The notes beneath the pieces are model-generated. The model was not told the DNA's origin. It made no database searches and was given only the letters and a program-made list of their open reading frames with translations. Source: Mrakia gelida (Eukaryota; Basidiomycota; Tremellomycetes; Cystofilobasidiales; Mrakiaceae). Taken from it: 64,000 bases of DNA. Below, one piece after another: positions 865 through 63,827 of the stretch; position 1 is the stretch's first letter; the number at the start of each line of letters is the position of its first letter. Made by a program: the position numbers and the translations under genes. The DNA is taken from NCBI GenBank assembly GCA_024345305.1, contig BRON01000014.1, forward strand, positions 806,001 to 870,000, read 5' to 3'.

Positions 865-1169
865 ATGAATCGTAAGTCCAACGGTCGACGACGAGAAGTG
901 AGATCACTTCGACGAGTCGTCGTCGTTCTCGCTCTCTCGCTCTCGTACTCACACTCCCAGAGTATGCCTCCCTCTCGTCACACCCCCTGTCAATAGCTCT
1001 CCCAGCAGCTACTACGGCCCCCCTACATCTTCGAAATCTAACTCCAGCCCAAGAAACGTCCAAAGAGAAGCGGAAGAAGTCAGCTGAAGACGCGAGAAGA
1101 ACTCAACCCCGACGCGTCCGCTCGAGGGTCTCCTCCTCCCTCAACCCTCTTCCCTTAGACCCAGATTGA
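865..1169 (+). CDS. Small spliced reading frame of 42 residues (gene or upstream ORF)
   Basis: An ATG at 865 is followed seven bases later by a GTAAGT donor. A good CTAAC branch box and CAG acceptor end the intron at 1047. Exons 865-871 and 1048-1169 join to 43 codons including a TGA stop. The product is basic, with many Lys and Arg in its middle, and matches nothing I know. It ends about 150 bases before the ATG of the next small gene on the same strand, so it may be an upstream ORF of that transcript. The splice signals are clear; the coding function is inferred only. Confidence 0.27.
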
Positions 1170-1322
1170 TCTAATCTTGCCCCATCAACTTCCGTCCCCA
1201 TCGCTTCTTCTCATCTCACCTCATAAAAGAGCTCAAGCAGCTCACCCTTTGCCTCATCAACCACCATCTCTCCCACCTCAACCCAACCCTCCCTCCCTCT
1301 TCTTCGCTCGCTCGACGCCAAC

Positions 1323-1547
1323 ATGAACATCCGATTCGCCTACACCCAAGTCGCCGCTCTCTTCGGGTTCTCCTCCTACGCTGGCTACCACATGGGGAAG
1401 CATTCGGTTGCTGTGAGTCTTGCTCTTCCTCCCTGCCTCGTTTCGAGGTTGAGTCTGAAAGGGCGACGCTGACCTTTCGTTTCGTATTTACTCTCGCAGA
1501 TGCTCACTCGAGACAGCGCTCGACGAGGAAGGGTCTACCGAATTTGA
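1323..1547 (+). CDS. Small two-exon protein of 45 residues, probably membrane-associated
   Basis: Exon 1 (1323-1412) begins at an ATG in a good context after a C-rich leader. It ends at a GTGAGT donor in phase 0. A CTGAC branch box and GCAG acceptor lead to exon 2 (1500-1547), which ends in TGA. Residues 4-28 are mostly hydrophobic and aromatic, and the last 13 are strongly basic (SARRGRVYRI at the end). This is the layout of the small single-pass subunits of mitochondrial inner-membrane complexes, but I cannot name a family. The intron signals and clean phase support a real gene. Confidence 0.5.
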
Positions 1548-2537
1548 TCTCTCTCTCTCATCTACCCATCAGGAAGGTGAGCTCACCTCGGTCTTCCTCT
1601 TTTGAGCGACCAACGACGACGCTGACCTTCACGACGCGTCGTCCTCCCTCTTCGCTTCTTCCACGTCCTTTCCAGCCCCAGACTCATATCAACTCAAACC
1701 AGCAGTAACGACAGTATTCAGCTCGACATCACGAACTTCGCTTTAGACTTCTCCTTCCTTCACCTCGCGTACATAGAGTAGCGGTCGACGCAGACGCTCT
1801 CGTCGACGTCGTCTTTCACTCCTTTTGACCTTCAAGCCTCGCTCTTACGACCTCTCTTCTGGACTTCTTCTTTCGCCTACACTGTCTTAATTAGCCCAGA
1901 CTTCTCTCTTGATCTAGAATGTAACTCACGAATTCCTGAGTCTCGCGAAGCAGGAAGAGTGAAGTGGGGCGGTCAGCTCGACGACGACGACACGAACAGG
2001 ACGTGCTTTGGTTCGGGGTAGACTACCTCTTCCTCGCTGAGAATCTCGCAGTGAGGTGAACGAAGCCCCCGCTTCCGAAGTCTGTGGGAAGCTCTTTCCC
2101 TTTCTAGAAGATGGCTTGCTGGGAAGAAGAGAAAGAGGAACGACGCGGATTTGAAGACGACGAGGTCGTCGCGTTGGTTGTCTTCCATTGAAGCGGCCAG
2201 ACGCTCGAGAGAAGATTAGCATGAGACAACAGTAGAAACAAAGCAGTGCAAGAGTAGCGAGTGACCTAAGACCCAAAAAGCAGACAAAGAGCTCAAAAGA
2301 GACGCGAGCCCAAAGGAGGAGAAGAGAAACAAAAACGAGAGCGAACCCTAAAAACCGATGCGAACGCGACAGCTCTGCCTCGTGAGCGTGTACAGCAGAG
2401 GAGAAAGGAGAAGCCTAGAAGAGAGAAGTGAGGCGAGCAGATGGAGTAAACCGAAGGGGAGTGGTGAGTATAGAGAGTGTCAAAACAAACACGACGCGTC
2501 GACTTCCCCCCTCCGTCCCCTGTCCTCCAGCACGCCT
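1548..2537. other. Intergenic region, no gene resolved
   Basis: Two copies of the dispersed palindrome GACGCGTC lie in or near this stretch (1633 and 2493). The first sits close to what may be a 3'-UTR intron of the preceding small gene. No family-like translation was found on either strand. Confidence 0.5.
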
Positions 2538-3260
2538 TCACGCACTACCACCCCGACTGCTCCTCTCCATCAGCCCGAGTAAACTGTCCTTGTTGACACC
2601 CATATCCCCCCAGTTCTTCTCCTTCCCTCGACTCCTCTTCCTCTCCATCCCAACCGACCCGCCTTCCCCTCCTCGACCCCCCTCGTCCGCTCTCGACAAC
2701 AAGCTCCTCTCGTCCCAGCTCACGCTCCTCGCATCAACGAACCCCAGACCCACGTCTCCTTCGCCGCTGGTTGACCAAGTCGAGAGCGTTGAGGAGGAGC
2801 TGGCGAAGCTCGATCCTGAAGACGACGACGACGCGCTCGACGAACTGGAGTTTCCGAACGACCTTCCTCGGGTCCCTAAGGAGGGTCGAACCGGTTTAGG
2901 CGAGGGTTGGGAGGGTAGTGGAATTAGGTGAGGGTGGGAAGACCGTGCGTGGAAGGGTGATTCGGAGGAGTGGATGAGCGAGGAAGTTTGAAGACGGAGG
3001 GGCACAGGAGCCGGCGGTTGGGAGTTGTGAAGGAGGAAGGTTGGAGAAAGGGAAGGCGAGCGAAGATTTGGCGAGGAGCTGGACATGGTGCGACTGTGTC
3101 GATGCTGATGAGAGGAGGATGGGATGGGGAGAGGTGGTGGAGGAGGAGGACGCCGAGAGGGAGCAGGAGGAGGAACCGAGACAGCTGTCGTCGTTATCTT
3201 TGAGAGCCCTGATCCTCTTGGAGAGGGAGAGTGAGGATTGAGGAGGAGAGTTTGGGACAT
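2538..3260 (-). CDS. Ser/Pro-rich protein of 240 residues, function unknown
   Basis: A single - strand reading frame starts at ATG 3260 and ends with TGA at 2538. The first half is Pro/Ser-rich with a polyproline run. The second half holds a Ser-rich tract followed by a more ordered, charged tail. Codons end mostly in C or G, like other genes here. Just upstream, a GTGAGC donor near 3367, a CTGAC box and a TAG acceptor near 3282 suggest a 5'-UTR intron, which explains why the first ATG lies in the second exon. The + strand is also open at 2428-2931, and that frame is the main alternative. No domain is recognised. Confidence 0.45.
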   Translation of the reverse strand: MSQTLLLNPHSPSPRGSGLSKITTTAVSVPPPAPSRRPPPPPPLPIPSSSHQHRHSRTMSSSSPNLRSPSLSPTFLLHNSQPPAPVPLRLQTSSLIHSSESPFHARSSHPHLIPLPSQPSPKPVRPSLGTRGRSFGNSSSSSASSSSSGSSFASSSSTLSTWSTSGEGDVGLGFVDARSVSWDERSLLSRADEGGRGGEGGSVGMERKRSRGKEKNWGDMGVNKDSLLGLMERSSRGGSA

Positions 3261-3422
3261 CGATGTACGATCCTACGTCTATACGAAGAAGGAAGGAGGG
3301 TCAGGACGGCTGAACGAAGGAGAGGAAAGGGGAGCCGAAGGAAGGATGAAGGTCTCGTCGAGCTCACCTTCGAGCTCGTCCGTTCCTTTGCCCCAGATCC
3401 CTAGTCTCGAGAAGGATCCCAT

Positions 3423-6045
3423 CCCTTGATGAGGTAGCGTAGTGAAGGAAATAATAGAAGAGAGGAAGATGTGGTTGAGGATGGAACGCAACGGTGAACT
3501 CTTCCGTGGAGCTTTGGTTCGAAAGGGAGCAAAGGGAATGGGACAGGGAAGCGGTCTCCGTCGGTCGATCTGAAGCTTGAAAAGAAGGCGTTTCGTTCTT
3601 CGGTCTCGGCCCTGAGCGGTCTGAAGGGACCAAATCAACTCTTATCGAGCTTTGGAAGGTTCGTTGCTGAAGAGAAGGCACCTGATCTGGAAAGGTCGAA
3701 GGGACGAAGGAGCGCTGCCGTAGAGCGAGTTCGAGATCGCGTCGCAGCTTTTTGGACCGAGTCAAAGAAGGGGAAGAAGAGGGGGAAGGAGAACTGCCTC
3801 GGCAGGAAAGCCGAGCACGAGTGGCAAAGATCGTTTGCCACCAGCGAGGGCTGAGGAGAGGAAGACCTTTGTTTGCGACGCGTCGCCTCTGCCCCGCGTC
3901 TTGGACTCAATGCGTCGACTCAAACAAGTTTGTATCCGTCCCTTACGCTTACAGGACGATGCAGAAGGTTGAAATAGCAGTGCATGCATCTATAAGCTCA
4001 AGGAATCAGACGAAGGCTTAGAAGAACGAACGACCAGTGAAGAAAACACCAAGAACGACGACGACTCGACCAAAACCTCGACTCAGCGAGCGACGAAGCA
4101 CAGATGCTGAGAGCGAGCCAATCGGAAGCCACTCGAGAGTAAACCTGAACATCCGACGCAAGAAAGAGAAGGAGAGCTGTGAACGAAAAGGGACGAGAAC
4201 GAGAACGAGAACGAAAAGGTGTAGGAGGGTTGAAGGGGGCTTCAGAAACGCCGATTGAAAGTTTCACCACATCCCCTCACCGCCATTCGACAGTAGGCAC
4301 AGGTCTGATCTGTGCGTGATGGCAGAGGGGAGAGGCAAATGGAAGGGTTGCCTCGCTCGAGAACTCTCGGTTGCGACGCGACGCGAAGCGTCGCACTTCC
4401 TTTTTCTCCCTTCGTGCGGGCGCCTTGATCTTTATATCCCTTGCGCGTAGAAGCTGAAGATGTTGAGCTCGAAGGATGGAGAGGTCGCTCGAGTCGAGTC
4501 GGTCGAGGCGAAGTTCAAAAAGGGGGTAGAGCCGAAGGCTTTCTTCATGCTTCTATCTTGAAAGCTTGCGTACGAGAAAGGTGATGACGATGTGGGAAGG
4601 CTCATGTGCATCGGAAGCGAAGGCAAAAGGTAGGGAGGGGCAGGCGAGGAGAGGTCGAGGTCGGAGAGGTGGTTTTGCGAGAGCTCTGCGTCCGAGGGTG
4701 GACAACTGCCGAGGTGCTTGGCAAGGTGGGAGGGAAGATGGAAGGGAAGGGAGTGATCTGATGCCGCGGTGAGGAGGAGGAAGGAAGGGGGGGTCAGCAA
4801 CTGGTCGGGGGAGGCAGGTCGAGAAAGGTTGTAGGAGCTTGTAGAGATTCAGATAGGGGCGAATAGACTAATATTCTTTGATGATGAAGCTCAGCATTCC
4901 TCTAGTAGGAGGTCTGATTGAACTATGAATTGGTGTGAATCATCACTGTAGGAGCGAGGGAGAGCGTCCCAGAGACCAGCGAGGTCACGACGCGACCTCA
5001 CCAGCTCTTGATCACTCCCTCTTGCACGAGAAGGTGGCCGAGAAGGGATGTAGAGGGAAGACTAACCAGTAAGGAATGCTAGGGTCGAAGCATGGGAAGG
5101 GAGATGGCGAAGGGAAGGAGGAACGGGAAGGGAGCTGGAGGGAGGAGGGATGAGAGCATGGTCAGCTTTGTGAACGAAAAGCTTCTTCGAGAGACGAGCT
5201 CGAGCGCAAAAGGTTGTAGAGGGGTAGAGGAGGGGTGGACTGACCTGTAGAAGAGGTGATGGTGAAGAGAGAGGAGGAAGGGAAGGAGCGGCGAGGTCGA
5301 CGACTTTCGAAAAAAGTCGAAGCGTGACTGGCGCTGCCGTTCGACCCCCCCCCTCCCGGCTCGCTCTCGCCTTCTTCGCTCCCAGAGATGGTAGCAAACT
5401 CATCAGAGCATGGCCTGGGGCGTCGAGGTGGAGTCAGATCGAAGCAGATCGTCAAAGGAATGAGAAACAAAGGCAAAAGCTCGACGCGTCGGCCACCCCT
5501 TGAAAATCGATTCCAAGAACCGACTCGAGCTCGACGGAGCGTGAGAGAGGTTCGGAGCTTGAGTGCTCGCCAAGGCGTTTTCCCTGAGAGATCCACTCCG
5601 TGGACACGTGAGAGAAGGTCGAAGAGCACGAAAGTTTTTCTTGCAACGGCAGTCTACGCGAGGCCACCTTCGTTTTGCTCTCCCGTTCTTTCCTTGTGAG
5701 GTCAAGAGCTTCGTTTCCCAGGAAAACTGTTCTCTCATCTCTCTCATTCGCGACGGGGAAATGAAGATGCAGACGACAAGCCATGCATCGAGAAGTTCAA
5801 GCAAGCAGGGCGAAGCTACGAAGAACGACGACGAGCACGCCCAAAGGACCTCGAGCGACGACGCAGATCTTGGCCGCGAACGAAAGCAGAGCCCCGGAGT
5901 CAAAGAGCAGACCTGAGCGTCCAACGAAAGAAAGAAGAGAAGAAGGAGTCAGTATCGAGTTTTCAAACGAAGAGAGAACGCGAACGAGAACGAGAAAGTG
6001 TGGGAGGGTTGGAGGGGGTTTCAGAAACGCCGTTTGAAAGCTTGA
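3423..6045. other. Unresolved region with scattered - strand splice-like signals
   Basis: Several - strand matches to donor, branch and acceptor sequences occur here (around 5130-5240, 4940-5060 and 6190-6430). I could not chain them into a family-like protein. Short candidate exons are Ser/Arg-rich. The only firm structure is the repeated segment annotated separately at 4196 and 5978. One or two lineage-specific - strand genes probably lie here. Confidence 0.4.
4196..4310 (+). repeat. Duplicated segment, copy 1
   Basis: This stretch matches 5978-6087 closely over about 110 bases in the same orientation. Shared blocks include TTCAGAAACGCCG and GCACAGGTCTGAT. Differences are mostly single-base, plus a 2-base indel near 4280. 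On the - strand it contains an acceptor-like CAG followed by a frame reading TCAYCR. Confidence 0.75.
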
Positions 6046-6087
6046 TCACATCCCCATCGCCTTTCGGCAGTAAGCACAGGTCTGATA
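5978..6087 (+). repeat. Duplicated segment, copy 2
   Basis: This is the partner of 4196-4310. It lies downstream of calcipressin on the - strand and overlaps the second candidate exon of the 46-residue frame at 6046-6296. The two copies are about 1.7 kb apart. Confidence 0.75.
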
Positions 6088-6296
6088 TAGTGTCATCATT
6101 GTAAGAGGTGAAGGTGGTGGTTGTCGAGGTGGGGGGAGAGGGGAGAGATGGACGAGAAAGCGACGAGCGGAAAAGAGAAGACGAGACTCACGAGTTCGAA
6201 ATGGTGGCCGCAGGAGTTGAGCTCGCTCAAGAGGGTTTGCCAGCGTAGAGGGCCGAGAAGGGAACGAGGGAGAAGAAGGTCGTCGAGGTCATGCAT
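6046..6296 (-). CDS. Candidate two-exon small protein of 46 residues
   Basis: Exon 6296-6192 reads an acidic, Leu-rich start (MHDLDDLLLPRSLLG) and ends at a GTGAGT donor. Exon 6081-6046 follows a TATCAG acceptor and ends TCAYCRKAMGM before a TGA. Phases fit and both splice sites look normal. The first exon is preceded by another - strand intron (donor near 6420, acceptor near 6312). All of this could therefore be a 3'-UTR of calcipressin rather than a separate gene. The second exon lies in the duplicated segment; copy 1 keeps the TCAYCR reading but runs on to a different stop because of the indel. Confidence 0.25.
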
Positions 6297-6453
6297 CTTG
6301 AGAGGCGTAAGCGAAGAGCTGCAGGGAAGGGAAGAGGGAGGAAGGAGGTCAGCGAGGGCGAAGAGAAACAACGAGCGATGAGAAAGCGCGAGCAGGTGGA
6401 AAGGCAGGGCTACTCACAAGTCATAAAAGGTCGTCGAGAGTCGTGTAAAGGGA

Positions 6454-7481
6454 TCAACCAGATCTAGGAGGCATAGCAGTAGGGACGATCTTCCCTCCAA
6501 CAGCGAAGGCGTCGGCGTATCCACCGAACATCGACCCTCCAGGAGCCCTCTCCCCCGCTCCTGCACCTCCTGCCATGCTGTCCACGGTCGCCTTGATCTG
6601 ACTGATCTTGACGGCCTGCTGATGACCTGCCGCGCTCTCGAAGATCTCGTCGGGAACGGCGTCGAGCTCATCGTCGTCGTCGAACTGGATGTCGGGAGTC
6701 ATGTCTTGAACGGTGACCGAGGGACCTCCTTCCTGTACATCCTCGATGATGGTGGTCTTCTCTCCTCGACGAGGAGCCTGGAAAGCGAGAGCTTCGAGGG
6801 CTCGAGTGAGGTCGGCGGCGAGGGTGTTCGAGTTGGGAGGGTCCTCGAGGATGGGTTCCCAGCCTTCCGGAGGAGAGCCAGGAGGCGAGATGAGGAAGTT
6901 TTTGGTGATGGGTGGAGGTTCGAGGTGGTCGGTGGAAGGTTCGAGGATGGTGGGAGCGGCGAGGTAGAGTCGAAGAGTGAGTCTGGAAGGGAAGGAAGGA
7001 CAAGGGAGGGAAGGGGAGCGAGGTCAGCGAAAGAAGGTTCGACGACGCAGATTTTCGAGCGCGAAACGAGGAGAGACGGAGGGAGTGCTCACCGAGGATG
7101 GTTTCCTACTCCATCTTGTCCCTCTGCAGGTCTGGGGAAGTAGGTACCCTCGGGGAGACGACTTCCTCGCTCGCCAGCGGACCTGTCCTCCCCTTCCTCC
7201 TCTCCTCCAATCTCGAGACGGTCCCCTTCCCTCTTGGCCCTCATAGCTCCCTCGTCCTCCTCAAAGACGATGATGACCCTTCCGAACGCTCGAATGGGTG
7301 CCCAAGTATGGATGGCTCCAAAGGTTTCGTAGTGAGAGCGAAGGAGGGACAGGATCGGAGGATGGAAGAGGAAGGGATGAGGCAGAAGGAGAGCGAGGGT
7401 GTTGGTTGGTTCGGGAGCAGGAAGGGAAGGAGGTGAAGGGAGAGATATAGGTGGGGGGAGGGGAGAGACGGTGGCGGACAT
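6454..7481 (-). CDS. RCN1: Calcipressin (regulator of calcineurin)
   Basis: Calcipressins bind the calcineurin phosphatase and tune Ca2+ signalling. Exon 1 (7481-7093) and exon 2 (6982-6454) are joined by a GTGAGC...CTGAC...CCAG intron and give 305 residues. Residues 40-85 form the RNP-like fold with the family string FGRVIIVFEEDEGAMRAK. Exon 2 carries the calcineurin-docking signature FLISPPGSPPEGWEP. The tail is acidic (DDDDELD) and then Gly-rich. Length and motif order fit fungal RCN1 proteins. The frame is open throughout, with no lesion seen. Confidence 0.93.
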
Positions 7482-7812
7482 GGTGAGTGGAGAAGAGAAG
7501 AGAGAAAGGAACGGACGGAGGAGGAGATGGGAGAAGGAAGGGAACGAGGTGAAAAGAGGTTTTGGAGGGGAGAGCTCGAAAAGAGGTCGAGCCGCTGAGC
7601 CCTCTCGCGTCTCCTTCTCGCTGATGACTTTCTCTATACAACGGCTGTAGGCAGCACACTAGAGGGAACGACGTGTCCGACAGAGTTGAGCAGCCCGCAA
7701 ATTTTGAGCCTCTGCGATGCTGCTCCTCCTCCCGAGGCGAAAAGACCGTTCCTCCTGATCTCCGTCTGCTCGTTTCGTGAGATGGGTAATGAGATACATA
7801 GATAGAGTGAGA

Positions 7813-9975
7813 TCACGTTAAGATAGTCGAGCGTTTCTCCTCCTCCGAATCTGCCTTCCTCTGCTCCTCAGGAATCCCAACCTCTCCGCCCGTCGACTCC
7901 ATCGAACTTAACACCTCCCGCTCCTTCCAATTCAGCCTCTTCTTCAGATACAGCGCCACCCAAGTGAGAGCGAGCAGCACAGGAACTTCAACTAGAGGTC
8001 CGATGGTAGCGGCGAGAGCTTGATCCGAATCGACTCCATAGATGGCGCTGAGGAAGAGGAAGAGGAGGAGCGGGAAGGCGACGCGTCAGCGAAGAGATCA
8101 AAGACCGCGAGGCGAGTCGACATCGGGAGAGAGAAAGAGAGAGATAGTGTGTGAGAGAGAAAGGCGAAGTATGACTTACATGCAGACTGCTATAGCGAGC
8201 TCGAAATTGTTCGAGCTAGCCGTGAAGGACTGAACGACAGCCATCTCGTACGATCCTCCCCACTTATCTCCTCCCTTTCTCCTTCCGAACCACCAAACTC
8301 CAAAGAAAGTCCCGCTCCACATGATGCAGAAGTAGAGGACCACTGGTGAAGAGGCACAGACGAGAAGAAGAGGGAGTCAGTCAAGCTCGAAGAGAAGAGA
8401 TCTGCTCGTCGCGTCGACTCGTCGTCAAACTCACTCGGCACGAAAACCCTGAACGTAGGACCGAGGTTATCGAGGATCCTGGTCGCCTGTTCGGCGAAGA
8501 TGATGATGATGATGTAGAGGAGACCGATGAGGGACCAGGGAGCGAACCAAGGGAGGAAGTGCGATTGAAATCGAGCGGGACCGAGGAGTCGACGGAAAAC
8601 GACGCGAGTGACGAAACCTGCGACGAGGGGGATTCCGAGGTACTGCGAGAAGACGAAGGTAGAATCAAAATATGAGTACAAGATAAACGGTGGTGAGGAG
8701 AGCGGGAGTGAGAAGGAAGGACGGGACGAACGATAACGACAGCGAGCGCGGTGTTTCCATAATCGAGTCGAAGACTCTCCTCTCCTCCTATCACGTTGAC
8801 GAAGAGCAGCGACATGGGCGAGTAAAGGATGATCTGAAGGACGGAGTTGATGATGACGAGGATGGCACAGTAGTCGCCGTCTCCTCCAGCGAGGTGATTC
8901 CAGATCTGAGAAACGAAGAGCAAAGACGCGTCGAGAGGTCAGTCAAGTCTTCTCGAGTGCGTACTTCGAGAAATCAAAGAGAGAGCTCACCATGACCATG
9001 GCGATACACCTAGCTAGTCCGACCATGATGACACCTGTTCGGTAGGTTGGAAGATCCGGCAGAGTGGCCCAGGCGATGGCGAGCATGACCTGAACGAGGA
9101 AAGGGAACGAAGAGAGCGAGGTCGGTCTTTCGTCTTCGAGGTTCAGCACTACGAAAGAGAAGAAGAGAGCGAACTCACGAAAGGTCCGACGATCCAGTTG
9201 AGAACGAGAGAGATGCAGATTTGATACCACATCTTCTTGGTCTGGAAGACCTGAGGGAGTTTCTCGTATTGAACTGGTCGCGACCGAGCGAGCGAGACGA
9301 AACAGAAGACATATTTAGCCGACGTTCTTCGAAGGAAGACAGAGTGTGCTGAGCTCACCCTTGGTCAAGATAGGCCACATCATAACAAGAAGCCCGACGA
9401 CGAGAGCTGATAACCAAGGGAAGGGTGAGAGGAATGATGAGCTTGGAAGGTCGAGCTCGCGAACGTGGGGAAAGTTGAAGACGAACGGATCGAGACTCCT
9501 TTGAGAGTAGAGCCGTTGAGAACCGCGTTGACGTTGGGAGCGAACTTTCCGATGCTGGCAGAGAAGGTAGGGAGAGGGCAAAGGAGAGGTCAGCTTCTTC
9601 GTAGAGAGGAGGAAAGGGAGGGGAGAGAGGGGAGAGAGAGGAGGAAGGTCGTCAAAATCGAAAGGACGAGCTCACACGACTCCCAGAATCATCGCCAGCA
9701 GCACAAAAACGGCGAGGAAACGATCCAGGAAACTGAGACCCTTGAGTAAGGCTGGCGATAGGAGAGAAGGAGGACAGTCAGCGAGGATGCTAGGAGGAGG
9801 CGTGGAGCCATGGACGAGGGGAGAGAGAAGCAAGGAAGGAAGGGAGGTCGAAGCTCAACTCGCCTTTGGTCGTGCTTCCTTCCTGCTCCTCAGGTCGCTC
9901 CCTGACTGTGGATTCCGATCTGATGGTTGCCGAAGAGGAGTGTAATGGTGGTGAAGAAGGTTGAGAGGACGGCAT
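7813..9975 (-). CDS. ACR3: Arsenite efflux transporter, ACR3 family
   Basis: ACR3 proteins are ten-helix carriers that expel arsenite (some also antimonite) across the plasma membrane. I assemble ten exons: 9975-9864, 9751-9676, 9554-9487, 9406-9359, 9273-9179, 9089-8991, 8905-8732, 8642-8435, 8342-8180 and 8047-7813. They total 425 residues with all phases consistent. Family landmarks in order are LSFLDRFLA, GLLVMMWP, LVLNWIVGP, the helix-4 Cys in GLARCIAMV, YLGIPLVAGF, and the helix-9 Glu in SSNNFELAIAV. The first intron uses a GC donor (AAAG/GCGAGT) and two others use GTTCGT. A Ser-rich start of about 36 residues precedes the membrane part. The gene diverges from the histidine kinase to its right. 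Confidence 0.96.
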
Positions 9976-53746: not shown

Positions 53747-55709
53747 TCACTTCTCATCCTTCTCGTCGTCGTAATCGTACTCGAGCGAGAAGTAGTCGGG
53801 AGGGATGTCGGATGACTTCTCGTCCTGCTGATCTTGACCGACGCGAGGATCCGAAGAGATGACGAGAGGGAAGAATTTGTGCTCGTCAATCTCGTTCTTG
53901 ATACCCTTGAGGGCAAGCTCGAGGCGAATGGCGTACTGGAAGGAGACGAAGAAAACAGCGAGCTTAGCGACGCGTCGACGAGAATGAGATCAAGATCCAG
54001 TCTCCTCCCTTCGCCGCCAAATTAGCTCGAGAGGCAAAGAGAGAAAGGAAGGATGAACTCACATCACAGCACAACAAGCCCCTCGTCTGCTCCTCCCTCA
54101 ACGTAGGCATCGCGTCCCCCGTAAGCTCGAACTCCCCAACCACAACTATCTCTCCTCCCCATCTCCTCTCCCCTCCTTCGACGTCCACCCACCCGTGAGG
54201 CTTGTACCAAACTCGCTTCTCGTCCTTGAGATCGGTGATGATTCCAGCAGCTTGTTTCCACTTCTGCGAAGCCTTCTTGGCGGTCGTGCTGACCGTTCGT
54301 CGAGCGGAGAGTCGAACCTCGGAGGGAGAAGGGAGGTTGATCGTCGTTTCTCCCTTTCCTTCGGGTCCGAGGACGAGGATGGAGAGATAGTAAGGGATGG
54401 GTGTGTTTCGAGGGAAGGTGGGGAGGGAGGGGACCGAGAACTGAGGAGTGAACGAGAGGGACGAAGGGGAGAGTGAGCTCGACGCGTCGCGCGTCGCGTT
54501 GGGATCTCGGTCTCGAGTGGAACGAAGTGAGAATGGGACTTACCTTGACGACAGCCTTGTTCTTCTTCCCCAAGAGCTTCTCTCTGTACTCCTCCTCCGC
54601 CGTCGAGGTGATCCAGCCTTCGTGAGCGGTTGGCTGAAGAGGAGCGATGGGCGAGAGGGACTGCTGCTCTCCGGAGGGTCGAGGGACGATGGGGAGAGGG
54701 ATCGAGGAAGGGTTGATCGATGCAGGAGGCCTGCGGTATGCGGGTAAACGAAGTCAGCCAGCGAAGCCCGTGACCTGAGTCCCTTCCAAGACTGGAAGTC
54801 GGGACGAAGCGAGACGACGACGGAGAGCAAAAAGAAAAAAAAAAAAAAAAGCAGGACGAACATGTAGATGAAGGGAAGCACCGTCCTTTCGTTCGAAGAA
54901 AACCTTCCCGCCTTGTGTCCAGAAATCTTGACGGAATCTACCACACATTCAAAGCCAGAAGTCAGCTCTCCTCAAAGGAAGAAAACAGCTTCGAGATCTG
55001 AACTCGCTTCGCCGAACTCACAAACGATCCTAGCAACCTCATGCCCTTTCGTCTTCCCCTCCCTGTTCCCACCCTCGAAGCTCGGCGGAAGGTTCGCCTC
55101 TCTCCCAGGAAGCGTGAACGACCAGGGGATCTCGAGGACGGGAGGAGGAGCGTTGGGGTCGGGGAGGGAGGAGGAGGAGGAGGTTGAAGCTGACCAGAGG
55201 AGGAGATCTTCTGAGTGCTGTAGAACAACGAGGGAGCGAGTAAAGATGTCAGTTTTCCTCCCGAAAACGTATGAAGAGGAAGGGCGTGTCGACGAACGAG
55301 AGCAGTCTTCTCCTCCCTGATATCTGTAGCTCAAACGAAAACCAAACGAAACAAACCCATCATCGGATCAGTCCGAGAGCTCGACATCGCTTTCCTCCTC
55401 CTCTCACTCCCTCTTTCCCTCCCTCCCTCTCCTCCCTCTCCCTCCCTTCCTCTCCCCCCCTTCCTTAGCCCCTTCCATCCACTCACCAAACTGCGTAGCA
55501 CTCAACACCTGGAAATACGTCGTAACCTGCAGGACCCTCAGCTTCGCGTAAACCTCATCGAGCTTGAACCTCCTCTTGTCCTCCTTTCCCTCCGTCTCTA
55601 GTCTGAGCGAGATGCTGCCCTGGACGACGTCGGAGGCGGTGAAGACGTGGGTTTGGGCGGAGGGGAAGGAGGGAGTGATTAGTTTGGAGGAGGAGGAAGA
55701 GGAGAACAT
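53747..55709 (-). CDS. Arrestin-like protein
   Basis: Seven exons (55709-55487, 55323-55298, 55217-55022, 54937-54862, 54730-54544, 54440-54063, 53935-53747) give 424 residues in phase. The first exon reads FTASDVVQGSISLRLE and then LDEVYAKLRVLQVTTYFQV, the strand order of an arrestin N-domain. LEIPWSFTLPGREANLPPSF is the proline-containing strand common in arrestins, and SVKISGHKAGRFSSN follows. A C-terminal sandwich ends with YAIRLELALKGIKNEI and an acidic tail ending DYDDEKDEK. Fungal alpha-arrestins recruit ubiquitin ligases to membrane transporters, but no PY motif is evident. Exon 2 is only 26 nt and two donors are GTTCGT. The fold call is by pattern, not search. Confidence 0.72.
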
Positions 55710-56165
55710 GGTGGTTTGGTGGCGGCGAGCTAGCGCGAGAAGAGAGGCTGTTTCGTTTCGTTTTTCGGCACGATCTCGGAGGAGGGGTGAAAGTGAAGAT
55801 CTTCATGCTAGGTTACTCACCGAGAAGAGGGCAGTGCTGCCGGCTTGTCTACAGCATTTCTTGGTAGAAATGACGCTTCTCGAACTTCGGCTCCCCCCAT
55901 CTTGATGAACTCGGTTCTCGCTCGTCGAAGAAGAAACGCGTCGATTTCGTGATTGTTTCGTAGAGATATGGCAACGTACGCGAACGAGGAGAAGGGGAAA
56001 CGAACGAAGCGAGCGAGAGAGTAAGTAAACAGAGTGTTTTGGAGGAAGAAACGAGGAGAACTACTAGAGCTAGAGTAAAGAAAGAACGAGGAACGAGGAG
56101 CGACGAGGGGAAGGACCAAGAGCGCGACGCGACCGAGGGAGGGGGAAGATATATAGAGAGTACGT

Positions 56166-56205
<40 letters not shown>

Positions 56206-56372
56206 GGAAGGGAGGGAAATCTAGGTAGAGAAAGCGGGAGGGAGGAGGGGAAAAGAACGAAGCGAGACAGGTCGTGAAAAGCTAAACGAAACGAAACGAC
56301 CGAGGGGCGAGAAGTATCTAGAAGAGCAGCGACCAAACGAGAACGAAGCGAACGAAGCAAAGGCTATAGGGA
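55710..56372. other. Promoter region of the arrestin-like gene
   Basis: The region is purine-rich on the + strand and contains the poly(G) run. No gene is seen. Confidence 0.5.
56166..56204 (+). repeat. Poly(G) run of 39 bases
   Basis: An unbroken run of 39 G on the + strand follows a TATATAGAGAGTACGT string and is flanked by purine-rich sequence. It lies upstream of the arrestin-like gene. Confidence 0.9.
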
Positions 56373-56813
56373 CTACGAAGACGAAGCCGCTGCTGCCTCA
56401 ACCTCCGTGAGCGAGGAGGACGAAACCGAAACCTCCCTTCCCGATGAGTCGAAGGAGCTCGAATCGTCCGTCGTCGATGGAGGTTCCGAGGAGTTTGTTG
56501 ATGGACTTAGAGGATGGCATCGAGGGTTATAGGTGAAGGATGGTGAAGAAGGTGGGTGATGAGGAGTGAGGAAGGGAGGGTTGAGGAAGGCTGATGAGCT
56601 GGCGAGAGGGAGGAGGGGAGGAGGAGGGTTGTGAGCTCGAGTCGAGTCGAGGAGTCGATGAGCGGGAAGGTGACGCTTTGAGCGAGGAGTTGAGTCTTTT
56701 TTGTATGTTTGGATGTTTGGCTTAGATGGGAGAGGAGGATGTGGTCGAAGGAAGAGGGAGAGGGGGGGAGGAAGGGCAAGAACATCCCAGCTCAGACATC
56801 CTCGTCGTCGTGC
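56373..56813 (-). CDS. Possible terminal exon of an unresolved Ser/Pro-rich protein
   Basis: After a CCAG acceptor at 56814, a frame runs to a stop at 56373. It is Pro/Ser-rich with a Ser/Glu/Ala ending (SLTEVEAAAASSS). Upstream - strand pieces can be joined in phase: a short exon near 56895 reading ASLMK and one at 57204-57173 reading DLRREVALHLF. No family is recognised, and a different arrangement of exons is possible. Confidence 0.3.
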   Translation of the reverse strand, partial: ARRRGCLSWDVLALPPPLSLFLRPHPPLPSKPNIQTYKKDSTPRSKRHLPAHRLLDSTRAHNPPPPLLPLASSSAFLNPPFLTPHHPPSSPSFTYNPRCHPLSPSTNSSEPPSTTDDSSSFDSSGREVSVSSSSLTEVEAAAASSS

Positions 56814-57172
56814 CTGGATTTTCCAGATCTCTTGCCGGGAGGTTGGAAGGTTGAATCGAGCAAAACAGCTTACGTAATCCCGCTTACCTTCATCAAGCTC
56901 GCCTGAGTTGACTTGATTCGAACAAGAAGCAATCGGACGCGCGGAGAGAGACGGGGAAAGGCACAAAGTGGTCAGCTCGACGAGATCGAAAGCTTTCGGA
57001 GAGGTAGGGAAAGAGCAAAGGGGCAGGAGAAGAAGAGGAGGAAGAAGAGCCCACCCATTCGGCTGAGCCGATCCGTCCGCTCTCGGAAGCGAACCAGCGA
57101 GATCGAACGAGGAGAGACGACGAGTGAGAGAAGCGACGCGTCTTGACTGCGAAGGGCGAAGGGCCTCACGAA

Positions 57173-57860
57173 AAGGTGAAGGGCGACTTCCCGTCGCAGG
57201 TCTGTCGAAAAATAACTAATGCGAAGTCAGTGGTTTGTTGAAGCGAAGCAGCTCACCTGCTTCGTTCTCCCTCGCTCGGGCCCTCAACGATCTGCGAATG
57301 CACTGCTCTCCTCGGTTACGTCCAAAGACCCAACTGAGCTCATTGCCATCTGCTACCTCTCCGACCACGACCAAGCAGGTCAGAGGAGTGAAGGGAGCAG
57401 AGATTGAATGCAAGATGAGCGCGACGCTCGAGGTCGAGGTTCCAGCTCCTCTGGAGAGAAGCACCCTCCCCTGCTCCAGAACGATGATGACGAGACCTTC
57501 TACGTCACTCCTGAGTAGTATACCACGTATGCTGATCTTCGGGATCCTACGAGAGTCGAGAAAGAGGAGCTAAGGAGGGGAGGAGTGAGACAGCCGGTGG
57601 TAGATCAGGGCAGTTGAGCTTCCTTCTTCGTTCGTTCCTTGCGACGAATGGACGCGTCGAGGTTAGAGACTCGTTGGAGAGCTGACGAGAGATGAAGAAG
57701 AAAGTGAGAGACTGAGTGAGCCAGTTCAGCGCTTGACGGAAGAGACCGAACGAAGGAAGAAAGGGAAGGGGGATCAGGACGGAAAGACTCGGACTTACCC
57801 ATCTCTCGCTTGATTCCGAACTCTCGTTTGCTCGGTATCCTAGGCGAGCGCTTTCAGGTC
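57173..57860 (-). CDS. Unresolved multi-exon - strand gene
   Basis: Splice-like signals on the - strand mark several short exons. One near 57840-57795 reads KREFGIKREM and joins across a GTAAGT intron to DPEDQHTWYTTQE near 57555-57514. Further left, two different continuations are open, one reading ARARENEA to a GTGAGC donor at 57254 and one ending SSAFADR before a TGA. I cannot choose between them, and no known family is matched. A gene here is likely; its structure is not settled. Confidence 0.27.
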
Positions 57861-58295
57861 GAGATCCATGACTGAGGTTGATATGTTGAAGATTTGAGAT
57901 CTTGAAGAGGGGACTCTGAGTCGTCGTCGACGTCGGGAGGGAAGGAGCGAGAAAAGCGTGAGCTCGAACGAAACTCCTCCCCTCCTCCTCGCCTTCTCTT
58001 CTCTGTGCTTCTCACGGCCATCTCCAAGATTTGCTGATCTCTTCTTTTCTCGCAGACTACTCACCCTTTGAACCCGTTCGCGTCTTTAGCACCCCTTGGT
58101 CGCTGCGATGACGAGCAAGACCAGGCCAGGCACGAAATCTTCTTCTCGATCCTCCTGCCGTTCGATAAGCAGCTGACGGGATGAACTGTCTGTCCTCCTA
58201 CTCCCTCCGTCCCTTTGCCACTCTAACCACCAACGGACATCTACGCAGAGACTTCAAGGTCTCTATATCTACCTCCCTTCAAGAAGGAATCAACG
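57861..58295. other. Unresolved region upstream of the first cyclin gene
   Basis: Splice-like signals of both strands overlap here: a + strand acceptor near 58055 and a - strand donor near 58070. It probably holds the 5' end of the - strand gene to the left and the promoter of the cyclin gene. Confidence 0.4.
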
Positions 58296-59906
58296 ATGGT
58301 CTTCCTCTCTCCCGTTCTGGACGACTTGACCCCCCTCCCTCTGCTCAGCCCCCCAAGCGACCTCTCCTCCCCTTCCCTTCCCTCCCCCGTTCGACCTCCC
58401 TCCAAGCAACCACTCCTCATCTGCTCACTCTCAACTCCTCCCTCTCCTCAAGACTACAGCCTCCCCTATCGAATCCCTCTCCCTGTTTCTCGCCTGTCTT
58501 CCCTCGAAGGACGAGGAGAGGGAGCGGCGCGAGAGGGATGGACGGAACCCCCTCGTCCCAACGAGGATCCTCCAGCAGCAACCATGACGGTCTGGTCCAC
58601 CAAGGAAGGGCTCGATATCGATGATCGACAGCAGATGCAGGAGCTCATGAATTTGAGGTGCTCGAAGGAGCATTACGGTCAGTCCCTGTCCTTCGTTCGA
58701 AGAGGTCGAGTCGAAGGAGGAGTGCGGGAAGCACTCGTTCGAGAGCTCACACGTTCTTACACGTTCTTACCCTTTCTTCTTCTCTTTTTCTCCAACAGTC
58801 ATGGCTTCCGAAGTCATCGGGATCATCGTACCGGCGCTCTCGTCCTCCTCCAACGCCTCCATCGAAGACAGACTCAAGGCTTCGAACGATCAAGCTCATC
58901 GACTCGCGAAGTCCCTCGCTCGCTGGTGCGATCTCTCCCAGCATCCTGTGAGTCCAGCAGTCTTCATTATATCACTCCAATGCTGCTCCTCAGACGCGCA
59001 TCTGACTGACCATTTCCTCTCCTCTCTTCGTGGATTTGGCGGGTCAAACAGCTCTGTACGCTAATCTCGACCATCGTCCTGCTCGAACGACTCTTCGCGC
59101 TTCATCCCCAGTTCAACGAGTCTGGTAAGCTCCCTCTCTCTCGCTTCCAGTCTCTCGGTGCGGTTCTTCAACCCAGCTAACCTCCTCCCTCGCTCTCTAC
59201 ATCCCCACTCTCCTCCTCAGCCATCTCCGCCGACACCTTCCTTCGCCTGAGCTTCTCCTCCTTCCTCCTCGCCCTCAAGACCACGTGCGATCGATCTTTC
59301 CACAACTCCACCTTCGTAAGATACACGCCTTGGTCCCTCGGAGACATCAACGTCATGGAGAGGGAGCTCCTGGGAGCTTCGAAGTACGATCTTTACGTCT
59401 CGACGACCGAGTGAGTGCATCGTCGTTCTCTCCCTTCTTTGGATTCGCTTCACCCTCCTGACCTTCTCGGGTTTCTCCTTTTCCCCAATACCAGATTCCT
59501 TCACCGAGCAGGAGGGTTCTGGACCCAGCATCTCCTCGAAACCACTCCCAAGCCCTCGACCTCAACCTCCTCCAACCTTCTCCTCGACGCGTCCTCCTCT
59601 CCTCCTCCCTCGCCTCCCTCCTCTCCCTCGATCGGCAACCTCTTCCTCACCCAACGACGCGCCGGAAAGGAGGAACGAGGCTGGAAGGGTGGGATCCTCC
59701 ATTCCCCCGAAAAGATGGGCAAACGAATGAACACCGACGAGGGAAACATGGAGACGGTTTGGCACGACGGGAGGTTGGAGAGAACGGAGGGATGGGTGAG
59801 GTCGAAGACGGTCGCTGCTGCGAAGAAGAAGAAGGTCGTCAAGCAGCGAAGTCGAAGAGCAACGGACGGAGGAGGGTTTACGCCTACGGAACTCCTTCCA
59901 GCCTGA
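58296..59906 (+). CDS. PHO80/PCL-type cyclin, tandem copy 1
   Basis: Five exons (58296-58677, 58799-58947, 59052-59124, 59221-59410, 59495-59906) give 401 residues in phase. After a Pro/Ser-rich N-terminus of about 100 residues comes QQMQELMNLRCSKEHY and a cyclin fold. The fold includes ASEVIGIIVPALSSSSN, LCTLISTIVLLERLFAL, SADTFLRLSFSSFLLALK and WSLGDINVMERELL, the layout of Pho80-like cyclins (Pfam Cyclin). Such cyclins activate Pho85-type CDKs in nutrient and polarity control. The C-terminus is basic (KKKKVVKQRSRR). It lies head-to-tail with a paralogue 1.1 kb downstream. The ATG at 58296 is the first in frame; 58584 is a possible later start. Confidence 0.87.
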
Positions 59907-60991
59907 TTGGTGAGTCGTGCTTTCTTCACTCTCGACTCGACTTGTCGCACGAGATGCGAGCAGCGAGGATGGGTTTCGCTTCGGTCCAGTGTCTGACACC
60001 TTCGCTCTTCTTCTTCCTTTCTTTCTTTGATCTGGATATAGTGGAGCTTCTTCTTCACCACTCCTCTCGGACCCTACCATATGCTACCACTTTGCCTCCT
60101 CCACCACGCTCCTTCACAACAACGCCCTCTCGCTCCCCGTCCCCTCTTTCTTCTCGTTGCGTAGGACTTTACGAGTCGCTCTGTTTCTTCGTCGATTTTA
60201 TCTAGTCTACTTACTCACTCCCCGCTCTCGTTCAGCTTTCCGCTCCCGCGCCTTGCTTCGTTTCTCTTCCTGTCTCGCTTCGCCTGCTGTCGCGTCGCCG
60301 TATTCCTTTGGGCTTTTGTTCTCCTCTCATTCGTAGGTTCCGTAACTAGTAAATCAATCGACCCTTCTCTCAATGAACTTTTCTCCCTCCTTTATCTTTT
60401 GGGGGAAGAGTTGAAGGACGATGAGCTGCACCAGCGACGACGCGTCAAGTCGAAAGAAAGCGATGAGTCGCTCGAGGTCCCCATGAGCAGAGCTTGTTGA
60501 CGTTCTCCGTTCTTTGTGACTTCTGACCTCGCGGTCTCGTTTAGCACTCCTGGTCGGGAGAAAGAGGAACAGAAGGCTCTGCGAGACGCGTCGAGCTGCT
60601 GCAAACCCTGCTTCAAAAACAAAGTCAGACCTCCGTCGGCCTTCTCTCAGTTTTCCCGTTGTCAACCTCTCGCATCACCTGATAGATGAAACCAGGGCGA
60701 TGGATGCCATTTCCGGCTGAAGAGAAGTGGTGGGAGGGGACGTCGCAGATCCTATGGATCCGTCTTTGCTCCTTCAGCCCAAATCTAATCTCTCGGCGGG
60801 GATCGCCGTGTTGATCCTTCAACCTCCTTCGCTTCTTCCTACCGCTGCTTTTCTTACCTTCGCTTTGCTTCTCGCTGATTGGACTGAGATCGCTCGTCGT
60901 TTGTCCCCGCTGGATCATCGATTCCCGATACAGCCGCCTTTAATCTCCCTCTCCATCGAGAATCGCCCATCCTCGACTCCCCTTCATTCTG
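59907..60991. other. Spacer between the two tandem cyclin genes
   Basis: No gene is recognised. GACGCGTC occurs at 60438 and 60585, only about 150 bases apart. The spacer would hold the terminator of copy 1 and the promoter of copy 2. Confidence 0.5.
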
Positions 60992-62941
60992 ATGTTCTTC
61001 GATGCCCTCCTTCCTCCCCAACCACCACTCCCTCCCTCGGAACCAGCCCTTCGAAGTAAGTACTATCTTCCCTTGCCGATTCTACGAGCAGAAACAGTCT
61101 CGATCCAAGGCATCGAAGCTGAGCTCACCCTCTTCCGAGTCCTCCCTCGTCTCAGTCTTCCCCCCTCTCCCTCCTCTTCCTCGCCCTGGATCCCCTTCTT
61201 TCGCCGACCCGTCACCTCCTCGTAGCACCTTTCTCTCGACATAGAATGTATCTACCTCGACCTCGCCTCAAGGAGCCTTTCTTCGACCCTCCCTCCCCTT
61301 AGCCCTCCGAGTCCTACCTCCGACGAGTCCGCCGTTCGATCGCCCGTCAAGGTCCCAATCACCGTCCGCTCGTCCCCACTCGTCTCGACTCCTCCCTACA
61401 CTCCTCCTACACCCAAAGTCGTCGATCAGAATGTTGAGGTTCCCGCGTCGAGTCTCGGTCCTCCGGCGAAACAACCTAAAAAGGAGGAGGACGTCGAAGT
61501 CGAGTCGGTTCGACGACGCGACCTCTCGCCGCAGGATCGGAGCCAGATGCAGGAGCTGATGATGCTGAGAGGTTCGAAGGAGCACTATGGTAAGCCTACA
61601 CCTCCCTCTTTTTCTTTTTTCTACCTCGCTCGCCGCAGCTTGACCTCTGGTGCGAGAGTCGAACAAAAGACGAGCTCACACTTCGCGTCACTCCTTTCCC
61701 TCTCTCGTTCTCTTTCAGCCATGTCAGCCGAGGTGATCAGCTTCGTCATTCCTCCAGTACTCTCCAACTCGACTGCTTCAGTCATGGATCGAGTGAAAGC
61801 TACGGAGGAGCAGCGTCGAGCTCTTGCGAAGGCTCTGTCGCTTTGGTGTGAGCTTACGAAACATCCTGTCAGTTCGTGTTTCTCTCTGCTCTCTGCTCGT
61901 TCTCTCTTCGTGAGAGGACATGACTCACGTCTACGAGAATCATTTGAACTGATCCCTTCGTTTGGTTTCGCCCAAACAGCTCTGCACTCTCATCTCGACG
62001 GTCATCCTTTTGGAACGACTTTTTGAGCTTTACCCCAAGTTTGATCAGAAGGGTGAGTCGCTCGGTATACTTGTATCTTCCAAAAACACTTGATGGGCTT
62101 GGGAGCTATTTTTGACCCCTCGCACTCGTTCTGTATCGTCTCGTCCCCCCTCTTAGCCGTCGCGTCCGACACCTTCCTTCGACTCACCTTCTCGTCGTTC
62201 CTCCTCGCCCTCAAGTTCACGACCGACGGCTCCTTTCGGAACAGAACCCTTGTTGGATATACTCGTTGGAGCCTCGCAGACATTGCGGTGATGGAGAGGG
62301 AGCTGTTGGCTGCTCTGAACTTCGATGTTTACATTTCCTGCGACGAGTGAGTTCGGATCTTTCTCTCGCTTCCTCCTCATCTTGTTCTCCCCTTCTCCCT
62401 CGTATCACATGAGGCATGACTGAACACTCCTCCATCTCTGTCTAACTCTCGAGCAGATTCCTCCATCGAGCAAACGGCTTCTGGACTCAACACCTCGACT
62501 CGACGCCGCGTCGCTCCTCCCCTCTCGACCTCGCTAACCCCACCTCGTCTTCCCTCCCGCCACCCTCTTCTCCAGTGGGAAAGCTTTTTCTCCTTCGACG
62601 TCGAGCCGGCCTCGAGGAGAGAGGCTGGAAGGGTGGGATCGTTCGATCTCCCTCGAGAGCGGGGAAGAGGATGGGAGAGGTCGTCGTGGAGGAGAGGGAG
62701 ACGGCTTGGAGGGATGGGAGGCTGGAGAGGACCGAGAACTGGGTCAGCTCTCGCTCGAAGTCTTTGAAACAGAAGGGAGAGAAGTCTTCGAGAAGGAGTA
62801 AGAAGGAGGATCTTGGGGATGAACTGAAAAAGTGAGTCGCGCGCGCTGGTTTTCGATTCCTCGTCGTGGTAGCTCCTCCGCTCAGAAAACCGCGCTGACT
62901 TTAACTTTCTCTGTTGTAGATCACACGGAGAGACTCTATAA
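60992..62941 (+). CDS. PHO80/PCL-type cyclin, tandem copy 2
   Basis: Seven exons (60992-61055, 61245-61589, 61719-61867, 61980-62052, 62157-62346, 62457-62831, 62920-62941) give 405 residues in phase. Exons of 149, 73 and 190 nt match copy 1 exactly in length and phase. The cyclin part includes SQMQELMMLRGSKEHY, SAEVISFVIPPVL, LCTLISTVILLERLFEL, ASDTFLRLTFSSFLLALKFT and WSLADIAVMERELLAALNF, followed by FLHRANGFWTQHL. The N-terminal region (TPPYTPPTPK) differs from copy 1 and is split by an extra intron. The last short exon is optional; without that splice the protein ends KK-stop at 62835. Confidence 0.86.
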
Positions 62942-63827
62942 TGCTGTCATCGATTCATTCTCTCTCATTGTCACTCGCATCGACCGTTCGAACGAGATTA
63001 TTTGGCTTTCCACTCCCCCTCGCTCTGTTCTTTGTCTACCATACACGCTCCACTCATCTAGACGCTCTCATACCATTGAGTTGATAGCATGCTAGCCCCA
63101 TCACTCGCTTCTATCTTCCTTCACCCTGTTGTCCCCATCTCTTCGTCGATCGTAGAGCTTCGTTCGCTGGACTCTGTCGTCCTAGCTTTGCTTCTTTCCC
63201 TGTCCTTCGCTCACATGGCTATATCACACTATCCATCTAGAAGGCTCAAGCCTCGATCCAGCATCGCGCTTTGATCCTCTCAGCCAGGTCGCGAGAGCTG
63301 CACTTCGAGAACGGAAAGGACGCGTCGCGTTTCAAGCTCGACTCTCGAAGTCGAGACCGAACCTCTTCCTCGTTTCTTTTCTGCTCCCGTTCCGGTCTTC
63401 AGATGCAACTCGGCTCACGGATCTGCTTCCGAAGACCCTTCCAAACGGGAGAGCAGGGACTGGAAGGTATGTGTTTCTGCTTGTTTTCGTTCGCTTGCAC
63501 GAGCCGTGCTTCGCTCAAGGACGAATCGAAGTCGGGTGAGGTCGGCAGCCCTTCCTTCCTTTTGCTGGTCATCCCTGGTCGTAGTTCTTTCGCAGAAGTC
63601 ATTTTTGCAGCTCAGGCGATCAGAAGGTCTTCTTGAGAACTCCTCAGAGTCGGAGTCAGATGTGGACGTGAAGAAATGAGCTCGAAAACGAGCTCCAACG
63701 AAAAAAAAAGCGGAAGTCGAATCGAGGTCGTTTCCGTTTGCGAGCTTTTCTGTTGGCTCCCTCCAACGTCGACTCCCCACTTCGCCCCCTCCCTTCTCCC
63801 TTCTCCCTCCCCTCTCGCTCTTCGACC
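62942..63827. other. Intergenic region
   Basis: This holds the 3' flank of the second cyclin gene and the promoter of the NADH dehydrogenase gene. GACGCGTC occurs at 63319. No gene is seen. Confidence 0.5.

Follow-up and report, generated by a model that had tools for sequence, protein, structure and literature searches.

The sequence ACGCGT is the MluI cell-cycle box and the site of MBF. DNMT5 is a methylase with an SNF2 part, to which the linker methylation of algae is linked, and CpG methylation confined to linkers in small algae was reportedly described by Huff and Zilberman in 2014. Passages of three papers describe CpG methylation confined to linkers along the gene bodies of small algae, with well-positioned nucleosomes (PMC5728721, PMC9246332, and PMC12695648). 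For prasinophytes, the last of these, in part, describes CpG-enriched genomes with high CpG methylation between nucleosomes, 5-methylcytosine (5mC) peaking where the N6-methyladenine (6mA) of the 5' end diminishes (PMC12695648). CGCG words bound by Rsc3/30, general regulatory factors of yeasts, are presented in part of PMC2897762 as nucleosome-depleted in living cells and as changing among fungi. HIP1 (GCGATCGC) is the highly iterated palindrome of cyanobacteria; passages of PMC4390886 discuss it together with DNA methyltransferases and call its purpose still debated. The word compared here with these systems is the octamer palindrome GACGCGTC of the basidiomycete Mrakia gelida, whose copies lie on a ladder with a period of nucleosome length. 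It was noticed in a stretch of 64,000 nucleotides (the window; assembly GCA_024345305.1, contig BRON01000014.1, positions 806,001 to 870,000).

The window contains exactly 36 copies of GACGCGTC, the first starting at 1111 and the last at 63319, which matches the count of about 36 and the strong over-representation claimed by a sequence-only reading of this DNA. Markov models of orders 0-3 predict 1.4-3.7 copies; the 16-33 copies predicted at orders 4-6 are attributed to the palindrome itself, which fills the 5- to 7-mer counts. The assembly comprises 34,857,517 bases (34.86 Mb) in 25 contigs. The sequence letters examined cover about 1% of the genome, and genome-wide statements are pattern counts. 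These give 15,647 copies of GACGCGTC, one per 2.2 kb, in contrast to 87 of the reversed word. A sample 264 kb in length consists of the window and 20 stretches of 10 kb, one from each of contigs 1-20. Here, 129 copies are seen versus 7.3 (order 2) or 10.8 (order 3) expected from models with the word masked, so the excess over a Markov background that the earlier reading had anticipated is borne out. The order-2 ratio is the highest among the 256 octamer palindromes in this masked sample. Among unmasked 8-mers seen at least 15 times, the z-score of GACGCGTC ranks first at orders 2 and 3 and second at orders 1 and 4.

The excess belongs to the exact word. In 294 kb, GACGCGTC reaches 12.6 times its order-3 expectation, compared with 3.9 and 3.8 times for its best one-letter neighbors, GTCGCGTC and AACGCGTC, and 0.4-2.5 times for the remaining ten of the 12 neighbor classes. 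The related hexamers TCGCGA (0.54 times) and CCGCGG (0.34 times) fall below expectation. The flanking G and C matter, with 150 copies of GACGCGTC versus 11.9 expected and 6 copies of AACGCGTT versus 4.8. A C in front and a G behind are favored (59%), and base preference is weak past the two nearest flanking bases. The extended form TCGACGCGTCGA, which the earlier reading had noted for several copies, occurs three times in the window. An artifact of composition was rejected as an explanation: the runner-up palindromes are enriched much less, CGAGCTCG at 1.2-2.5 and GCTCGAGC at 1.2-3.0 times the order-2 expectation depending on the compartment, and GACGCGTC itself holds the under-represented steps AC (0.84), GC (0.69), and GT (0.80).

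Neighboring copies of GACGCGTC are spaced near whole multiples of ∼170 bp, with a period of about 168-170 bp. Pair distances counted genome-wide in five 31-bp bins show 600 pairs at 155-185 bp and 545 at 325-355 bp, in contrast to 35 at 70-100 bp, 30 at 240-270 bp, and 48 at 410-440 bp. Uniform placement at the same density predicts about 218 pairs per bin, and the in-step bins exceed the out-of-step bins ∼15-fold (mean of 573 versus 38). A local set of pairs, listed up to 1100 bp, was drawn from 100 positions of contig 1, 94 kb of contig 14, and the 20 stretches. Its 77 pairs below 700 bp leave gaps without pairs at 28-110, 197-304, 378-455, and 557-634 bp. The power at 170 bp is 35.3 for the 170 pairs below 1500 bp, with 95% of the maxima over all periods in 300 jittered sets lying below 7.3. 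It declines with distance, from 38.1 for the 77 pairs below 700 bp to 6.7 for 93 pairs at 700-1500 bp, 5.8 for 78 pairs at 1500-2250 bp, and 1.5 for 80 pairs at 2250-3000 bp. With only 8 pairs in range (mean cosine of 0.57 and power of 2.6), the ladder could not be established from the window alone. The nearest-neighbor gaps fit an exponential (134 gaps, coefficient of variation of 1.06, Kolmogorov-Smirnov p of 0.35), a fit that alone would conceal the periodicity; testing for phase at 165 and 180 bp gave a first hint of it (0.27 and 0.29).

The exon-intron architecture was rejected as the cause of the ladder, since relocating the copies inside their own intron, exon, or intergenic segment destroys the phase: the observed power of 14.4 (34 pairs; mean cosine of 0.62) compares with a maximum of 8.6 in 1000 trials (mean cosine of 0.13). 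The mean cosine is 0.78 both for 11 pairs within one intergenic segment and for 8 intron-intron pairs, and it is lower in the mixed classes (0.26 for 5 intergenic-intron and 0.45 for 5 exon-intron pairs). The half word CGCGTC outside the palindrome, at 1.7 times its order-3 expectation, is phased as well (380 copies, 362 pairs, power of 86.7), and pairs of the control words CAGCAG and GGATCC are without such a period. As a separate observation, an apparent tandem repeat on contig 22 contributes 8 of the 35 pairs at 70-100 bp and 4 of the 48 at 410-440 bp. Pairs of GACGCGTC 85 bp apart recur there at 10005-13048, partly in 509-bp steps, and at 223632-228113.

The dinucleotide composition follows the same period. 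CpG density, taken around 150 copies, varies from 0.055 to 0.100; four clear maxima lie near 169, 337, 519, and 687 bp, and a fifth is broad. TpA runs in antiphase with a relative amplitude of 0.53, followed by ApT (0.29) and CpA (0.15), and AA, AC, AG, and CC are nearly flat (0.01-0.03). The ratios of linker-like to core-like DNA are 1.47 for CG, 0.39 for TA, 0.64 for AT, and 0.77 for CA; among trinucleotides, they amount to 1.5-1.6 for ACG, CGA, and CGC, with CCG/CGG nearly flat at 1.08. In the window with GACGCGTC masked, the amplitude at 172 bp is 4.4 (CpG) and 5.1 (TpA) times the median over periods of 60-318 bp; 100 kb of Escherichia coli shows no such period (0.6 and 0.5 times the median). 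The wave is clear between genes and weak in long exons. Centered on the start codons of 65 predicted genes, TpA oscillates as well (relative amplitude of 0.23-0.29 and best period of 178-182, with no null computed), and CpG has an amplitude there of only 0.06-0.09.

GACGCGTC is probably a word of linker DNA, and the genome would carry in its sequence a record of where its nucleosomes sit. The nucleosomes would hold stable positions, one about every 168-172 bp, to which the sequence would have adapted, with CpG, above all in ACG, CGA, and CGC, gathering in the linkers and TpA, ApT, and CpA gathering in the cores. The octamer would be the extreme of this linker vocabulary, tolerated or selected mainly in linkers and, given the constraint of codons, largely kept out of coding sequence. 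We infer that the ∼170-bp unit is the nucleosome repeat and that the copies lie in linkers rather than at dyads; the scarcity of half-repeat distances between them agrees well with a short accessible linker. About 7.5% of all linkers would carry GACGCGTC if each copy lay in one. A chromatin element had been among the four roles suggested by the sequence-only reading, and it fits both the ladder and the CpG/TpA wave in step with it. The most speculative part is a sequence-specific recognizer, suggested by how exact the preferred word is. It would occupy GACGCGTC and, in gene bodies and 3' regions, would help to maintain open linkers and aligned nucleosome arrays. A dimeric DNA-binding protein would rank first as the recognizer, and a methyltransferase and reader with this preference would rank second. 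Tentatively, a dedicated protein dimer could recognize GACGCGTC in linkers and, together with the half sites CGCGTC, keep the arrays aligned along gene bodies once the phasing from promoters fades.

Several results weigh against the linker reading. The label "nucleosome" derives from the length of the period, and the phase fades past about 2 kb. Measured from the start codon, copies of GACGCGTC are unphased (36 and 22 copies), and no 10-bp rotational signal stands out among six step classes (ranks 9 to 92 of 178 periods). Some words without CpG share the phase (GAGCTC with 0.42 and CCTCC with 0.21). In the 27 exons of at least 700 bp (35.9 kb), the CpG wave is weak, at 2.7 times the mean of 20 block shuffles and just over their maximum, and the TpA wave falls inside the shuffle range. 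The gene models were compared with a known protein for homoserine dehydrogenase alone. Finally, the wave loses little strength away from the word: more than 1.5 kb from any copy, it reaches 0.0024 for CpG and 0.0039 for TpA, in comparison with 0.0028 and 0.0050 within 600 bp. The full palindrome therefore cannot by itself create the phasing, and it would be a member of a wider linker vocabulary rather than the sole organizer.

The alternatives to the linker reading are not mutually exclusive. Mutation or repair may differ between linker and core, for example, through fewer C-to-T changes at linker CpG, so that CpG words survive and the palindrome has no function. The independence of the wave from the palindrome is in line with such a passive record, as is the way in which the steps linked by pyrimidine-purine (YpR) transitions trade places, CG being up and CA/TG and TA down in linkers. 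However, ApT falls too, which is not of the YpR-transition kind, and neutral mutation is not expected to lift one octamer to 12.6 times expectation while TCGCGA drops to 0.54. Even predicted coding sequence contains 20 copies, compared with 2.7-4.3 expected (264 kb). A purely passive origin appears improbable.

A gene for a DNMT1-type cytosine methyltransferase is present at C10:829501-833713 (PF00145, 97.4 bits), its model being cut at the 5' end of the stretch. It is the one match that passed of three candidates in an exon-by-exon search of the genome with PF00145, a search in which a divergent DNMT5 could be missed. A Pfam scan of the model gave PF00145 alone, and the best 23 of 32 matches in the PDB are named DNMT1, most of them over about 70 residues. 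The whole model as a query found no homologue at an E value of 0.001, and residues 370-769 gave 286 homologue matches. Fungal relatives of the protein carry PF01426, and one is named as a BAH-domain protein. Because of this gene, the organism may methylate its DNA, and a modified CpG site, another of the roles suggested earlier for the palindrome, stays among the candidates.

With this enzyme, methylation could be directed to linker CpG and help to repel nucleosomes, and selection would keep the linkers CpG rich. The ACGCGT in GACGCGTC would then be a preferred site, a mark rather than a protein-binding site. Besides the gene itself, this proposal draws on the prasinophyte pattern, partly described, of high CpG methylation and enriched CpG between nucleosomes along gene bodies (PMC12695648). 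Intron copies of GACGCGTC are also scarcer in the first 500 bp of predicted genes (4 in 15.8 kb versus 47 in 52.0 kb; p = 0.007), comparable to the algal 5mC that peaks where 5'-end 6mA diminishes, as given in part of PMC12695648. On the other side, CCG/CGG is hardly phased (1.08) while ACG, CGA, and CGC reach 1.5-1.6, and a plain CpG enzyme leaves an exact octamer unexplained when TCGCGA and CCGCGG lie below expectation. The deamination neighbors GACACGTC (2.4 times) and GATGCGTC (1.3 times) are unremarkable within the neighbor range of 0.4-3.9, from 11 and 16 two-strand counts. Linker methylation in algae is tied to DNMT5 with its SNF2 part, of which the model shows none, the 5.8 kb behind it having been modeled but not scanned. 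Linker-directed methylation is considered rather unlikely as the explanation.

Compartments were assigned with a hidden Markov model of our own that includes splice signals, was trained on the data, and is neutral to motif positions. The predicted homoserine dehydrogenase of the window aligns at 92% over its full length with the protein of Mrakia frigida and at 67% with that of Phaffia rhodozyma, which places the host in Mrakia or close to it; relative to the Mrakia protein, it has ∼16 surplus residues at one place, probably a missed intron piece. In the 264-kb sample, the density of GACGCGTC is 0.75/kb in introns (51 in 67.9 kb), 0.82/kb in intergenic DNA (41 in 50.0 kb), and 0.17/kb in exons (20 in 119.9 kb), values that omit 17 of the 129 copies, which lie in small models or across a boundary. 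The claim that the palindrome is concentrated in introns thus holds against exons (p = 1e-9) and fails against intergenic DNA (p = 0.67). GACGCGTC is common throughout noncoding DNA, and the intron focus of the sequence-only reading misses equally rich intergenic DNA; an intron-specific element was rejected on this equality. Among the 36 copies of the window, 16 lie in introns of models of at least 150 amino acids, 2 in small-model introns, 9 in intergenic DNA, 6 in exons, 1 in a small-model exon, and 2 at a predicted splice edge, one of them in a small model. The 20 coding copies of the sample are read as D-A-S (10), T-R (7), or R-V (3).

An RNA-level splicing element or a remnant of an introner would account for the excess on the intron side of donor sites. 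With GTGAGT as an anchor, genome-wide and without any gene model, 2158 copies lie 5-35 bases to the intron side and 203 to the exon side (10.6:1), so that the equal density in introns and exons that would have spoken against the earlier reading is not seen. However, intergenic density equals intron density, and 50 of 558 introns carry a copy. The words of the splice sites are weakly phased (GTGAG with 0.12 and CTGAC with 0.07), and the base preference in the flanks of GACGCGTC is weak. The earlier statement that many copies sit shortly upstream of the CTGAC branch box is matched by a mild excess (13 of 34 copies 4-20 nucleotides ahead versus 6.5 expected, in introns of up to 200 nucleotides with a called box), but there is an excess downstream as well (6 of 34 at 4-10 nucleotides versus 2.4, with 5 of the 6 at +4), and the calling of the box is crude. 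A splice-linked element was rejected on this weak and two-sided excess and on the poor phasing of the splice words. A splicing hairpin, as had been proposed, finds no support, because intergenic DNA is as dense as introns and a perfect 8-mer palindrome leaves no loop. An origin at the RNA level is hardly credible.

The core of GACGCGTC equals the MluI cell-cycle box, and an ordinary transcription factor site of the MBF/APSES type with the core ACGCGT has to be weighed. One exon match to KilA-N was found at C12:73286 (E value of 3.6e-4), at a locus whose model has ankyrin repeats and, when scanned, gave ankyrin families only. The region 100-200 bp before start codons is an exception to the depletion near gene starts, with 5 copies in 5.3 kb. 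The promoter concentration expected of such a site is absent: noncoding DNA within 1 kb of a gene holds 12 copies in 26.7 kb where a gene start is nearest and 28 in 26.6 kb where a gene end is nearest. Introns 1 and 2 are poorer in copies (5 in 20.6 kb versus 46 in 46.9 kb elsewhere; p = 0.0007), introns more than 1.5 kb from the start reach about 1.0-1.2 copies/kb, and 4 of 35 intergenic copies fall in divergent regions, which make up 29% of the sampled intergenic positions. Together with the 15,647 copies in the genome, this makes the MBF-type site of the sequence-only reading, in its ordinary sense, very unlikely.

The features of the window are collected in the table. Some further observations concern the gene context of the word. 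In the 264-kb sample, the exon-plus-intron units of the gene models have a mode of 150-200 bp, close to the nucleosome repeat, and the coding fraction around GACGCGTC shows a faint swing of 152-164 bp (0.035). A 15-kb stretch, C1:126143-141217, is without any copy of GACGCGTC; the part at C1:128001-138000 has four ordinary-looking gene models above 80 amino acids, and its best CpG period is 160 bp. Introns are also enriched in another word, CGAGCTCR, whose trend is the opposite one, with 2.1-2.2/kb at 250-1000 bp behind the start codon and 0.08/kb at more than 3 kb. Phasing is seen for its CGAGCTCA form as well (mean cosine of 0.35, 60 pairs) and hardly for its CGAGCTCG form (0.11; 26 pairs).

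Table. Copies of the palindrome and extent of the composition wave in the 64-kb window; compartments follow our own gene models, and the strand of every feature is given as "."
Feature	Position	Strand	Context
GACGCGTC copy 1	1111..1118	.	splice edge of small gene model
copy 2	1633..1640	.	intron of small gene model
copy 3	2493..2500	.	intron
copy 4	3877..3884	.	intergenic
copy 5	5483..5490	.	intergenic
copy 6	8080..8087	.	intron of model 6454-9975
copy 7	8925..8932	.	intron of model 6454-9975
copy 8	10199..10206	.	intergenic
copy 9	14321..14328	.	intron of model 10692-18700; TCGACGCGTCGA form
copy 10	16568..16575	.	intron of model 10692-18700
copy 11	18766..18773	.	intron of small model
copy 12	21562..21569	.	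intron of model 20742-23138
copy 13	22393..22400	.	intron of model 20742-23138
copy 14	23116..23123	.	last exon, R-R-V; TCGACGCGTCGA form
copy 15	23975..23982	.	intron of model 23140-25675
copy 16	24791..24798	.	intron of model 23140-25675
copy 17	27145..27152	.	intron
copy 18	27450..27457	.	intron; 305 bp from copy 17
copy 19	28358..28365	.	intergenic; TCGACGCGTCGA form
copy 20	34253..34260	.	intron
copy 21	40492..40499	.	intergenic
copy 22	40688..40695	.	exon of small model; 196 bp from copy 21
copy 23	44578..44585	.	exon, D-A-S
copy 24	46612..46619	.	intron
copy 25	49079..49086	.	exon, D-A-S
copy 26	49613..49620	.	exon, T-R; 534 bp from copy 25
copy 27	52159..52166	.	intergenic
copy 28	52619..52626	.	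intron of model 52265-53420; 460 bp from copy 27
copy 29	53969..53976	.	intron of model 53747-56520
copy 30	54481..54488	.	intron of model 53747-56520; 512 bp from copy 29
copy 31	57135..57142	.	exon, T-R
copy 32	57651..57658	.	across predicted splice edge; 516 bp from copy 31
copy 33	59586..59593	.	exon, D-A-S
copy 34	60439..60446	.	intergenic; 853 bp from copy 33
copy 35	60585..60592	.	intergenic; 146 bp from copy 34
copy 36	63319..63326	.	intergenic
nucleosome-length CpG/TpA wave, GACGCGTC masked	1..64000	.	best periods CpG 172 bp, TpA 170 bp

How much of nucleosome positioning is written in the DNA itself has long been debated, mostly on the strength of weak statistical signals. Here, the positioning signal is legible in the raw sequence, as the ∼15-fold contrast between in-step and out-of-step bins illustrates. 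If the linker reading is confirmed, the genome could show how static nucleosome positions stay over evolutionary time, and the octamer would offer a way to capture whatever protein or mark maintains them. No report of GACGCGTC or of such a ladder in Mrakia was found among the literature matches listed, a search whose coverage leaves out most subscription papers.

Among the described systems, the sites of Rsc3/30 share the CGCG contained in GACGCGTC. Those factors help to set the nucleosome-free regions of promoters, whereas the copies here reach, near gene starts, about half of their density near gene ends. The MBF site has the identical six-base core ACGCGT, in contrast to which the flanking G and C matter here and neither copy number nor location is promoter-like. 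Small algae resemble M. gelida in a CpG pattern with a nucleosome-length period, which is found here in the DNA sequence and not in methylation. The algal pattern is one of DNMT5-linked CpG methylation; that of M. gelida involves an exact octamer, leaves out CCG, and comes with a single PF00145 gene found, which is DNMT1-like. HIP1 likewise is an exact octamer palindrome repeated genome-wide, GACGCGTC standing at 12.6 times expectation compared with at most 3.9 times for its neighbors. Words beginning with "spacing" or "periodic" are absent from the main text of the HIP1 paper PMC4390886. Unlike GACGCGTC, which is found in a fungus, HIP1 is a bacterial word, GCGATCGC, in genomes without nucleosomes. 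A fungal genome with an exact octamer spaced on a nucleosome ladder fits neither HIP1 nor the algal linker marks fully; if the linker reading is true, GACGCGTC would be a eukaryotic counterpart to the iterated palindrome of cyanobacteria.

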